A stretch of DNA of 64,000 nt from Bradyrhizobium sp. WBAH42 (lineage in GTDB: Bacteria > Pseudomonadota > Alphaproteobacteria > Rhizobiales > Xanthobacteraceae), in NCBI RefSeq assembly GCF_024585265.1, contig NZ_CP036533.1:6147001-6211000 (forward strand), read 5' to 3'. Shown piece after piece: positions 8,031 through 54,304 of the stretch (positions are counted from its first letter, which is position 1; each line of letters begins with the position of its first letter). Below the pieces are notes generated by a model that was given only the letters and a program-made list of their open reading frames with translations, ran no database searches and had not been told where the DNA came from. A program made the position numbers and the translations under genes.

Positions 8031-8112
8031 GTCGTTCCGGGATGGTCCGAAGGACCAGACCCGGAATCTCGAGATTCCGGGTTCGATGCTGGCGCATCGC
8101 CCCGGAATGACG
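8031..8112. repeat. Family A palindromic repeat (short form)
   Basis: Two back-to-back hairpins: GTCGTTCCGGG to CCCGGAAT, then GATTCCGGG to CCCCGGAATGAC, joined through CTCGAG. This form lacks the 22-23 base spacer of the longer copies at 9484, 36405 and 48864. It lies inside the probable operon between the alpha-E and transglutaminase genes, so it would be present in the transcript. Confidence 0.85.
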
Positions 8113-9483: not shown

Positions 9484-9585
9484 GTCATTCCGGGGCGCGC
9501 GTAGCGCGAGCCCGGAATCCATTCATCCACCACTCTGCGGCCCGATGGATTCCGGGCTCGCGACTTCGTCGCGCCCCGGAATGAC
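9484..9585. repeat. Family A palindromic repeat (double hairpin)
   Basis: 102 bases. Hairpin 1 runs GTCATTCCGGGGCGCG to CCCGGAATCCAT; a 22-base spacer containing TCATCCACCAC follows; hairpin 2 runs ATGGATTCCGGG to GCGCCCCGGAATGAC. The outer ends are inverted copies of each other. It lies between the AhpD-like gene and the Anbu gene. Confidence 0.92.
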
Positions 9586-11202: not shown

Positions 11203-11309
11203 AACCAAACTGCGAAAACAACCCCATGCACAGTAGGCGGCGTGGGGTTGCAACGGGCTTCGGCGCGCGAGGGTGACGTCAGCTAAATCCCGGCGCTGCC
11301 TCCACAATC

Positions 11310-11394
11310 GTCATTGCGAGCGCAGCGAAGCAATCCAGGCTGCCTCCGCGGCACGATTCTAGATTGCTTCGTCGCAAGGGCTCCTCGCAATGAC
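11310..11394. repeat. Family B palindromic repeat
   Basis: GTCATTGCGAGCGCAGCGAA on the left and CTCGCAATGAC on the right form a long imperfect hairpin with GCAATCCAG and CTAGATTGC arms inside. It lies between the convergent SDR and MFS genes. The rest of that spacer shows nothing recognisable. Confidence 0.9.
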
Positions 11395-14062: not shown

Positions 14063-14074
14063 GCTCTCTCTACC

Positions 14075-14153
14075 GTCATTGCGAGCGAAGCGAAGCAATC
14101 CAGGCTGTTTCCGTAGATACATTTCTGGATTGCTTCGCTTCGCTCGCAATGAC
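14075..14153. repeat. Family B palindromic repeat
   Basis: GTCATTGCGAGCGAAGCGAA pairs with CGCTTCGCTCGCAATGAC, with GCAATCCAG/CTGGATTGC inside. It is located between the convergent CNT and rhomboid genes, where the hairpin could double as a terminator, although no U run follows it. Confidence 0.92.
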
Positions 14154-19719: not shown

Positions 19720-21405
<1,686 letters not shown>

Positions 21406-21436
21406 TCCAGCCTCTCAGGCAAAGTCGAGACACGCG

Positions 21437-21465
21437 AAACCCCGGCAGCGATGCCGGGGTTTTTG
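21437..21465 (+). terminator. Intrinsic terminator after groEL
   Basis: AAACCCCGGC, GCGAT-like loop, GCCGGGGTTT and a T run form a compact GC stem with a U tract, 32 bases after the groEL stop codon. Confidence 0.93.
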
Positions 21466-21496
21466 TTTGGGCGATGCACGTCAAAGTGGTAAAATG

Positions 21497-21537
21497 GTCA
21501 TTCCGGGGCGCGACGAAGTCGCGAACCCGGAATCCAT
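21497..21537. repeat. Family A repeat, left hairpin flanking the GIY-YIG gene
   Basis: GTCATTCCGGGGCGCGACGA to CGAACCCGGAATCCAT is the same left hairpin as in the complete family A copies at 9484, 36405 and 48864. After it come TTCACCACTTGCTC, similar to the usual spacer start TCATCCACCAC, and then the ATG of the GIY-YIG gene. Confidence 0.92.
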
Positions 21538-21551
21538 TTCACCACTTGCTC

Positions 21552-21839
21552 ATGGCCTACTACGTCTATCTCCTCGCCAGCAAGAAATACGGCACGCTCT
21601 ACATCGGCGTGACGAACGACATCGTTCGCCGTATCCATGAACATAAGAGCAAAGCCGTCGCCGGTTTCAGCAAGAGATACTCTGTCGACAGGCTCGTTTG
21701 GTTCGAAATCTACGACGATCCCCTAACTGCCATCGCGCGCGAGAAGGAATTGAAGAAGTGGCGACGGGAATGGAAGGTCCGGCTTATTGAGGAGAAGAAT
21801 CCCCAGTGGATCGACCTATATCCACAAATCGCGAGCTGA
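21552..21839 (+). CDS. Small GIY-YIG endonuclease (URI-type, COG2827)
   Basis: 95 residues from the ATG at 21552. The frame is open upstream only because it passes through the repeat. GIY corresponds to YVYLL at 4-8 and YIG is LYIGVT at 16-21; the catalytic-type Arg is in DIVRRIHEH (26-27) and the conserved Glu in AIAREKELKKW. Stand-alone proteins of this type are predicted single-domain nucleases of unknown role. The gene is enclosed by the two hairpins of a family A repeat, 14 bases after the left one and 12 bases before the right one. The gene seems intact. Confidence 0.9.
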   Translation: MAYYVYLLASKKYGTLYIGVTNDIVRRIHEHKSKAVAGFSKRYSVDRLVWFEIYDDPLTAIAREKELKKWRREWKVRLIEEKNPQWIDLYPQIAS

Positions 21840-21851
21840 GCTTGCAGATTG

Positions 21852-21892
21852 ATGGATTCCGGGCTCAGCGCTTCGCGCTGCCCCGGAATGAC
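21852..21892. repeat. Family A repeat, right hairpin flanking the GIY-YIG gene
   Basis: ATGGATTCCGGGCTCAGCGC to GCTGCCCCGGAATGAC is the right hairpin of the element, inverted relative to the left one at 21497. Together the two and the gene make a 396-base unit with inverted ends. Confidence 0.92.
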
Positions 21893-21943
21893 AGCCCGGA
21901 TAGAGCGCGCGCAACCAGGCGCTGCGCGCTGCCCCGGAATGAC
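21893..21943. repeat. Partial extra family A hairpin
   Basis: AGCCCGGATAGAGCGCGC to GCGCTGCCCCGGAATGAC is a decayed further right half directly attached to the unit above, so repeat ends have been duplicated here. Confidence 0.7.
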
Positions 21944-21951
21944 GGGGCGCC

Positions 21952-22698
21952 TCACTCCACCTTCCCGATCCGCTCGAAGCGCGGCTCGCCGTCCTCGTCG
22001 AGCGACCAGAAAATCCGCGTCACCTTGCCGATGAGATTGTCCATCGGCACGAAGCCGAATGTCGACTGCATGCGGCTGTCGGTGGAATTGTCGCGGTTGT
22101 CGCCGAGCACGAAGAAGTGGCCCGGCGGCACCGTGAAGACGTTGGTGTTGTCGAGGGTGCCGTCGTCGGCGCAGTCGTAGGTCACATAGGACGCGCCGCT
22201 CGGCAGCGTCTCGCGCCAGCGCTTGACGGCCGCGCGGTCGTCGACACCGCAGGCCTCGCCGGCGGGTGTCGCCTCCAGGGCGACGCGCGTCACCGGGCGG
22301 CCGTTGAGGATGAGCTGGCCCTGCCGCATCTGGATGCGGTCTCCGGGCAGGCCGACGACGCGCTTGACGTAGTCGACAGAACTGTCCTTCGCCGTCCGGA
22401 ACACGACGATGTCGCCATATTCGGGATCGGCGGCGAGGATGCGGCCCGAGATCCAGGACGGCGCGAACGTGAGCGAATGGCGGCCATACCCGTAGGCATA
22501 TTTCGCCGCGAAGACGTAGTCGCCGACCATCAGCGTCGGTGCCATCGAACCGGACGGAATGTTGAACGGCTGATACAGGACGAAGCGAAACAGGATCACC
22601 GGCGACCACAGCACCGGGATCATCAGGATCAGGACAACGATCGCCTTCCAGTCGCTGGATCGCGCCGCGGGGCGGATCGATTCCTGAAGAACGGTCAT
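21952..22698 (-). CDS. lepB: Signal peptidase I
   Basis: 248 residues from the ATG at 22698 (MTVLQESIRPAARSSD). It removes signal peptides from exported proteins at the inner membrane. One N-terminal membrane anchor (about 18-42) is followed by box B NIPSGSMAPTLMVGDYVF with the nucleophile Ser 51, box D DYVKRVVGLPGD with Lys 112, and box E VLGDNRDNSTDSR. Length and order are normal. It is not next to acpS, rnc or era as in many alphaproteobacteria, so it may be a second copy. Confidence 0.93.
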   Translation of the reverse strand: MTVLQESIRPAARSSDWKAIVVLILMIPVLWSPVILFRFVLYQPFNIPSGSMAPTLMVGDYVFAAKYAYGYGRHSLTFAPSWISGRILAADPEYGDIVVFRTAKDSSVDYVKRVVGLPGDRIQMRQGQLILNGRPVTRVALEATPAGEACGVDDRAAVKRWRETLPSGASYVTYDCADDGTLDNTNVFTVPPGHFFVLGDNRDNSTDSRMQSTFGFVPMDNLIGKVTRIFWSLDEDGEPRFERIGKVE

Positions 22699-36396: not shown

Positions 36397-36404
36397 GGGT
36401 CGCA

Positions 36405-36510
36405 GTCATTCCGGGGCGCGCCTCTTGGCGCGAACCCGGAATCCATCGAGCGCCAGAGGTGGTGGATGAATGGATTCCGGGCTCGCGACTTCGTCGCGCC
36501 CCGGAATGAC
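36405..36510. repeat. Family A palindromic repeat (double hairpin)
   Basis: 106 bases, built as at 9484: left hairpin GTCATTCCGGGGCGCG to CCCGGAATCCAT, then a 23-base spacer with GGTGGTGGATGA (inverse orientation relative to the 9484 copy), then ATGGATTCCGGG to CCCCGGAATGAC. It starts 9 bases after the DUF488 stop codon, between convergent genes. Confidence 0.92.
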
Positions 36511-36522
36511 ACGTGGGGAGGC

Positions 36523-43835: not shown

Positions 43836-43919
43836 GTCATTGCGAGGAGCGAAGCGACGAAGCAATCCAGAAAACCTGCGCCAAACGATTCTGGATTGCT
43901 TCGCTGCGCTCGCAATGAC
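43836..43919. repeat. Family B palindromic repeat
   Basis: GTCATTGCGAGGAGCGAAGC on the left and GCTGCGCTCGCAATGAC on the right with GCAATCCAG/CTGGATTGC inside. It is located between the convergent GFA and DUF2000 genes. Confidence 0.92.
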
Positions 43920-48863: not shown

Positions 48864-48968
48864 GTCATTCCGGGGCGCGCCACTTGGCGCGAGCCCGGAA
48901 TCCATTCATCCACCGTCGCCGCTGCCCAATGGATTCCGGGTTCGCGCTGACGCGCGCCCCGGAATGAC
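48864..48968. repeat. Family A palindromic repeat inside the cox cluster
   Basis: 105 bases; left hairpin GTCATTCCGGGGCGCG to CCCGGAATCCAT, 23-base spacer starting TCATCCACC, right hairpin ATGGATTCCGGG to CCCCGGAATGAC. It lies between coxD and coxE, and would form two hairpins in their shared transcript. Confidence 0.92.
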
Positions 48969-54215: not shown

Positions 54216-54226
54216 TCTCACAACTC

Positions 54227-54304
54227 GTCATTGCGAGCGCAGCGAAGCAATCCAGACTGCCGCCGCGGAAAGATCCTGGATTGCCTCGCTGCGCTCGCAA
54301 TGAC
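54227..54304. repeat. Family B palindromic repeat between pcaD and pcaC
   Basis: GTCATTGCGAGCGCAGCGAA pairs with CGCTGCGCTCGCAATGAC. It ends just before the AAGGAGG ribosome site of pcaC, so the folded hairpin would sit next to that site in the transcript. Confidence 0.92.

Follow-up and report, generated by a model that had tools for sequence, protein, structure and literature searches.

The window, by which we mean the whole stretch of 64,000 nucleotides of Bradyrhizobium sp. WBAH42 DNA analyzed here, holds at 21497-21892 a gene for a GIY-YIG nuclease enclosed by two hairpins of a dispersed palindromic repeat, family A (Table 1). A first-pass annotation had proposed this arrangement for a gene of 95 residues, and its coordinates were confirmed to the base, together with the 314-nucleotide spacer and the 14 and 12 nucleotides that separate the gene from the left and right arms, respectively. 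The arms are 41 nucleotides each and 78% mutually complementary; each folds alone (z of -5.3 and -4.7, none of 200 shuffles being equally stable), and a single-strand fold-back of the entire unit is also possible (z of -5.3). The start codon is putative, because the open frame extends upstream of the ATG through the left hairpin (21474-21551), giving an open reading frame of 121 amino acids from 21474. No promoter- or terminator-like sites were found in 21380-22000, and nothing in 21300-22050 rose above a gathering score of Rfam. The repeats at 9484, 36405, and 48864, which had been said to share one plan with this locus, do carry the same arms, set around spacers of 22, 23, and 23 nucleotides, and each folds into one long hairpin (z of -9.5 to -11.5). 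The core CATTCCGGGG is found at 10 places in the window, where shuffles predict 0.24.

Table 1. Family A elements of the window and the parts of the gene-bearing copy
Feature	Position	Strand	Remarks
Left hairpin arm	21497..21537	+	GTC tag, stem ATTCCGGG, tail CCAT; ends in CGGAATCCAT; folding tested
5' spacer end TTCACCACTTGCTC	21538..21551	+	Similar to spacer ends seen in short dimers and in other gene-bearing copies of the A-i kind
GIY-YIG nuclease gene, 95 aa	21552..21839	+	ATG at 21552, stop ends at 21839; PF01541
3' spacer end GCTTGCAGATTG	21840..21851	+	
Right hairpin arm	21852..21892	-	Inverted copy of the left-arm type; starts with ATGGATTCCGG
Extra right arm, truncated, adjoining the element	21919..21943	-	
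Short family A dimer without gene	9484..9585	.	22-nt spacer
Short family A dimer	36405..36510	.	23-nt spacer, reversed in orientation; orthologous site empty in 4 of 29 loci (window included)
Short family A dimer	48864..48968	.	23-nt spacer; spacer type at the orthologous site varies among relatives (30 loci, window included)

The only Pfam match of the 95-residue protein at an E value of 0.001 is PF01541 (E = 6.8e-17), and the tyrosine transposase or HUH domain by which a RAYT is recognized is absent from its matches at that threshold. Residues Y6, Y17, G19, R27, H31, E64, and N83 are each retained by 196 or more of the 203 aligned rows; the protein is a small, single-domain GIY-YIG protein in which the active-site positions are complete, and its predicted fold agrees with that of GIY-YIG enzymes. 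The sole solved structures matched by sequence at E of 0.01 or below are those of the UPF0213 proteins BH0048 (1zg2; E = 1.4e-4) and EF2693 (1ywl; E = 7e-3), which have the same fold at 24-32% identity. Two PADLOC candidates were set aside, namely UzuA, matched weakly and in part (E = 3.7e-6, over residues 5-55), and PDC-S14 (E = 0.009); both matches were read as the common GIY-YIG domain. Purifying selection on the type A genes is strong, with a median dN/dS of 0.089 over the 37 usable pairs of 91 among 14 genes. In-frame stops are present in the GIY-YIG copies of several genomes (G007, G012, G022, G026, G029, G035, G047, G048, G050, G056, and G058), and gene decay is therefore fairly frequent; at least two stop-bearing copies (L031 and L339) still lie between family A arms. 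The genome of the window has seven PF01541 matches, one read as uvrC and six as stand-alone genes; four of the six are in the subfamily of the 95-residue gene, each inside a different palindromic repeat. A second subfamily in this genome (L004 and L006), with the C-terminal residues AFAKKRL, adjoins other palindromes, of the CCTTCGCTCGCTTCGCGAGC and GCGAAGCAGGATGG types, and apparent tRNA genes.

The same genome contains 55 short-spaced family A dimers and none of the reversed pattern. Among the 50 of these used for comparing spacer ends, the spacers are of two kinds, 21-25 nucleotides (42 dimers) and 16-17 nucleotides (8 dimers), and the two kinds resemble the two kinds of spacer end found in gene-bearing copies, A-i (TTCACC...) and A-ii (AACCAC...). 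Of 18 positions compared, short-spacer ends agree with gene-bearing ends at 12.44, a figure that falls to 8.74 (sd 0.20) when ends are shuffled, and 0 of 300 shuffles are as high. Measured against the gene-bearing copy of the window alone the match is 9.10, against 5.34 (sd 0.20), which agrees with the earlier remark that the spacer of this copy begins like those of the short repeats. Arms and spacer ends are thus common to both forms, and one site, between groEL and lepB, has gene-bearing and hairpin-only alleles. To judge from these likenesses, the short family A repeats look like gene-bearing repeats from which the gene is missing. An intermediate exists: L046, a second element in one genome, has a 131-nucleotide spacer that retains both element ends and fragments of the gene, which favors the view that long forms have lost the gene by deletion on at least one occasion. 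Alternatively, the gene may have been captured by a short form at the origin of the element.

Matching hairpins are by no means peculiar to this locus. The subfamily is present in 58 of 60 Bradyrhizobium genomes, with 192 matches in total, and we compared the flanks of 93 of these genes with those of other genes of the same loci. The 93 are mostly higher-scoring matches, and some rows located at the end of a contig or interrupted by an in-frame stop were skipped; L004 and L006 (the other GIY-YIG subfamily), L007 (uvrC), and L008 (a duplicate of L001) were omitted. An inverted match of at least 9 nucleotides between the two flanks was found at 84 of the 93 genes and at 8 of 149 other genes, and at 11 nucleotides the counts were 75 and 3. 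The first-pass annotation had proposed testing whether GIY-YIG genes of this kind have family A hairpins as flanks more often than random intergenic genes do; inverted matching flanks are indeed commoner at the genes compared here. Among the best 80 of 574 named candidates, the match was present at 56 of 80, against 5 of 82 other genes; 22 of the 80 are from Bradyrhizobium, some of them from genomes also in the genus set, and the figures divide into 20 of 22 for Bradyrhizobium and 36 of 58 for relatives elsewhere, which range from Massilia and Sphingomonas to records titled Omnitrophota, Parcubacteria, and Nitrospirae. A class-level sample of 29 loci (190 genomes were searched, 54 of them had a match, and 29 of these 54 each contributed their best locus) gave 13 of 29, against 0 of 23. 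Nesting between matching hairpins is a pattern, not a single case.

The inverted-match test is independent of the patterns by which we defined repeat types, those patterns having been written after the flanks were seen. Under a relaxed rule, an arm of the form GTC-stem-loop-stem-CC/CT lies within 100 nucleotides of 81 of 93 genus genes, 75 of 80 named relatives, and 24 of 29 class-level genes. A strict count of GTCAT-type arms over 95 genes (the 93 genus genes and two of another subfamily) places 33 between inward-facing arms within 100 nucleotides and 30 with no such arm. Arms occur at 7.6-10.3 per kb near the gene and at 0.4-0.6 per kb beyond 500 nucleotides. These observations bear on the idea that the repeats have inserted independently, piling up because the intergenic regions near these genes are insertion hot spots. 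One site considered below, at 36405, is indeed a hot spot for several REP families; nevertheless, this explanation is already disfavored, and we regard it as most improbable, given the inverted pairing of the arms, the matching of their types, an arm density within 100 nucleotides 12 to 27 times that beyond 500 nucleotides, and spacers of near-constant length (23 of the 31 family A type spacers of at least 36 nucleotides in the fetched loci are 307-317 nucleotides long). Nor are the flanks random insertions, because the type of repeat tracks the clade of the gene and the short spacers consist of gene-bearing spacer ends. Two outcomes named beforehand as speaking against nesting, related genes devoid of repeat flanks and independent insertions at variable distances, thus did not materialize.

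Hairpin types, like the site states and patterns used here, were assigned by eye. The eight types found in the genus require 10 changes on the protein tree, where the minimum is 7 and shuffled assignments average 62.4, with 0 of 200 as low. For six types, a single branch separates the genes of that type from all others; B and E are intermixed, and 5 of 26 B/E genes have E upstream and B downstream. This matching of type to clade is in part vertical descent at conserved sites: as judged by common flanks, a single context accounts for 12 of 14 type C genes, 10 of 10 Br-REP1-like genes, and 21 of 26 genes of types B and E combined. Clustering by context yields nine clusters for 20 type A genes, a number that overstates their dispersal because groEL lies no more than 1.5 kb from 15 of the 20. 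Gene-bearing copies mostly occupy one site per type, and the gene form is therefore rarely seen moving.

It could be argued that the nuclease gene is a mere passenger: a REP dimer, whose hairpins act as terminators or mRNA stabilizers, would have captured a small gene, with no specific relation between repeat and enzyme. REPs do lie mostly downstream of coding regions, according to the abstract of one survey (PMC3733652), and the arms described here fold strongly. We nevertheless consider this reading improbable, for the gene clades keep their own hairpin types, and outside Bradyrhizobium the same plan recurs with different hairpins; repeated capture of one gene family would not be expected by chance.

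The types differ in how widely their arms are scattered. Type B arms are weakly dispersed (a 31-mer, with at most one mismatch, is found in 10 of 12 genomes, with at most 8 hits), and type C and F arms are dispersed in 12 of 12 genomes, in 1-79 exact copies. In the distal flanks of the 95 loci (361,768 bases), gene-less dimers were only of types D (8) and Br-REP1-like (3). The window itself has type D repeats (GTCATTGCGAGCG... and relatives) at 11308-11371, 14073-14136, 43840-43903, and 54225-54288, which resemble the flanks of L005, another GIY-YIG paralog of this genome, and a Br-REP1-like element, CCCGGAATCTCGAGATTCCGGG...CCCCGGAATGAC, at about 8060-8111. A small palindrome, TGCGCAATTGCGCA, with variants and often with CTGAG after it, recurs in or beside REP arms of several types, both near the gene (L002, L025, L053, and L060) and elsewhere (L253, L258, L264, L265, L284, L290, and L296); it has the look of a further short insertion within the repeats.

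Copy number was compared across the 60 genomes, 21 of which have a type A gene (19, and two with an in-frame stop). The median number of short A dimers is 26 in these 21 genomes and 6 in the 39 without the gene, among which three with a partial gene were counted (p = 3e-4, kinship ignored); when genomes with partial or stop-bearing genes are left out, 19 and 36 genomes remain, with medians of 33 and 6 (p = 4e-4, kinship again ignored). None of the nine genomes that lack short A dimers has a full-length type A gene, one of them, G038, having a partial one. Short copies persist without the gene, and two genomes that lack it hold 60 and 53 of them.

At two of the short-dimer sites the occupant changes in type, orientation, or presence between species. 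Both were followed through the 30 best-matching genomes, window included, of which 30 and 29 loci, respectively, were readable. The 48864 site, between MoxR-like and CoxE-like genes, keeps an element or its remains in all 30 loci, with interiors of A-i (11), A-ii in either orientation (8), Br-REP1-like (5), and other or reduced kinds (6); these represent 7 states and 17 changes, against a shuffled mean of 17.5, with 93 of 200 shuffles as low. The 36405 site, between DUF488 and PhzF genes, holds A-i in both orientations (17), a CTGAGG-type REP (5), GTAG-type REPs (2), or type F (1), and is empty in 4; here 6 states in 29 loci require 14 changes, against a shuffled mean of 16.7, with 7 of 200 as low. 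Empty alleles were seen at this site only, and the outer flanks there differ too. It is a convergent intergenic site (36397-36522 and L278-L306) at which several unrelated REP families, including GTAG-type (L283 and L304) and a GTCATCCTGAGG family, are found in related species. Since the 36405 site keeps some phylogenetic signal and hosts unrelated REP families, a plain insertion hot spot explains part of what is seen.

The groEL-lepB site carries an A-i gene in one direction at 8 loci, an A-ii gene in the opposite direction at 5, and a single residual hairpin at 5, with 8 changes against a shuffled mean of 8.5; two of the A-i loci (L031 and L170) are from the same genome, and L027, L046, L057, and L076 are not A-i, judged by their flanks. 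The gene tree splits A-i from A-ii with full support, and the groEL-lepB flanks do not group them. The flank tree requires 3 changes, and the grouping by flanks is not rejected (AU p = 0.078), so that a swap of A-i and A-ii genes at this site is suggestive only. The precise empty orthologous sites for which the first-pass annotation had looked ahead did not turn up for the gene-bearing element: among the 8 readable relatives at groEL-lepB, 3 have the gene and 5 a hairpin only, and all 8 keep at least one hairpin, in some form degenerate or intact.

On balance, and with only moderate confidence, we think it probable that the locus is a REPtron-like unit for CGTC REPs, in which the nested GIY-YIG nuclease recognizes and cuts hairpins of its own type and repair between copies moves the interiors. 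Two inverted REP hairpins enclose the nuclease gene, and the common short dimers would be the same element minus the gene. The nuclease would most likely recognize and cut its own hairpin type when it is single-stranded, on the lagging strand or in incoming DNA; that exposed hairpins are cut during replication or DNA uptake is inferred by analogy with RAYTs and with what is reported of a Neisseria enzyme discussed below. Recombination between copies, in repairing these cuts, would swap, flip, remove, or duplicate the interior, and the gene would be carried along in the manner of a homing endonuclease gene. Binding, cutting, and a role for the enzyme in driving the change of occupants are the parts of this scheme that we infer; the nesting and its wide recurrence, the pairing of types with clades, the homology of spacer ends, purifying selection, and the changing occupants of fixed sites are observed. 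Against the scheme stands the fact that flanks match on both sides at only 13 of 29 class-level genes and at 36 of 58 relatives outside Bradyrhizobium. GIY-YIG enzymes hydrolyze DNA and do not join it, and alone such an enzyme is not a transposase; spread must therefore rely on host repair, and true transposition by the protein alone is unlikely. The proposal from which we started, that this is a gene-carrying and possibly autonomous form of the repeat, is supported in its first half, because the flanks (84 of 93 genes) stand at near-constant distances, their types match the gene clades, and the short spacers consist of gene-bearing ends; it fares less well in its second, autonomous mobility, with mostly one site per type.

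A wider version of this reading can be offered tentatively. CGTC REPs across bacteria may constitute a class of mobile element whose sole enzyme is a small GIY-YIG nuclease, the gene-bearing dimers being autonomous, the short dimers being deletion derivatives, and both spreading and trading interiors through copying that the nuclease provokes from one existing repeat to another, a kind of homing among REPs. Were this true, it would answer the question, posed in 2013, of what mobilizes CGTC REPs.

A paper published in Nature Communications in 2025 reportedly describes Ssn, a Neisseria meningitidis nuclease of the GIY-YIG kind by which a dispersed repeat is cut in its single-stranded form. The enzyme is said to have thousands of homologues and its family to be defined by a small, single-domain GIY-YIG protein with a complete active site. 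The gene at 21552 could, then, encode a domesticated host nuclease of the Ssn kind, for which the repeats mark self or incoming DNA (for example, in modulating transformation), those beside the gene being targets or autoregulatory sites, with no role in the spread of repeats. Strong purifying selection, conserved sites (12 of 14 type C genes in one context, 15 of 20 type A genes beside groEL), a subfamily that occurs in 58 of 60 Bradyrhizobium genomes, and the reported Neisseria precedent speak for such an enzyme. We think this the less likely account, because the homology of the spacer ends, the internally deleted intermediate, and the changing occupants of fixed sites point to movement or conversion of the element itself. 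Returning to the REPtron-like unit that we favor, if the account of Ssn is right, the pairing of enzyme and repeat has both a precedent and a biochemical mechanism, and what would be added to it is a dimer with the gene nested inside, derivatives of that dimer without the gene, and fixed sites at which the occupant changes.

The family A repeats fit the CGTC-tagged REPs (Di Nocera et al. 2013), which that survey describes as abundant in alphaproteobacteria, with Bradyrhizobium listed (PMC3733652). All four copies in the window have GTC in each arm. On the left, GTC is preceded by C in the copies at 9484 and 48864, by G in the one at 21497, and by A in the one at 36405, and variants of the tag are allowed (PMC3733652). 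The ATTCCGGG stem and CCAT tail agree with a stem of 8-9 bp from AT and a short CCA, so that a GTC tag, an 8-bp stem starting with AT, a CCA tail, and many copies in inverted pairs are common to the two (PMC3733652). Loops in CGTC REPs are 4-5 bp, with other lengths allowed for Bradyrhizobium CGTC-1 (PMC3733652), and the family A loop fits only through this exception, because its inner part exceeds 5 bp and forms pairs of its own. A stem ATTCCGGG and an end CCCCGGAATGA are likewise present in the Br-REP2 consensus of B. japonicum USDA 110 (Hahn et al. 2016, PMC5082802); in the main text of that paper, which uses neither the term GIY-YIG nor the term endonuclease, Br-REP1 and Br-REP2 are described as 3'-UTR repeats, unlike the gene-bearing form found here.

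According to the 2013 survey, CGTC REPs have no association with a transposase gene and are apparently without a dedicated transposase; its discussion offers hypotheses on what mobilizes them and leaves open which enzyme makes or moves them (PMC3733652). The difference here is the GIY-YIG gene nested inside, a term absent from that main text, and there is now a candidate enzyme for each repeat type. The same survey places the Neisseria dRS3 repeat in the superfamily as a CGTC-1 REP (PMC3733652).

Among the titles and abstract openings listed for the literature searched, which included few subscription papers, we found no description of a GIY-YIG or Ssn protein paired with a REP-type repeat. 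The opening claim that no such system had been described therefore needs qualification: the repeats are known, as CGTC REPs and Br-REP elements, and an Ssn-repeat pair has reportedly been described, while a pairing with a nested gene did not appear in that literature. This locus and its relatives provide candidate pairs of cognate enzyme and repeat, as well as fixed sites at which the occupant changes between related species. They would give REP biology a second class of enzyme, next to the RAYTs, and many small nucleases, for each of which a candidate target can be read.

Like Ssn of Neisseria, as that enzyme is reported, the nuclease described here is a small GIY-YIG enzyme paired with a dispersed repeat. 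The closer parallel in organization is with the REPIN/RAYT REPtrons of GTAG REPs, in which, too, an enzyme gene is flanked by REPs, gene-less dimers are dispersed, and the repeat type is specific to the enzyme where several families coexist (PMC3733652). RAYTs, which recognize and cut single-stranded REPs, are tyrosine transposases with an HUH domain (PMC3733652), whereas the enzyme within family A is a GIY-YIG nuclease.
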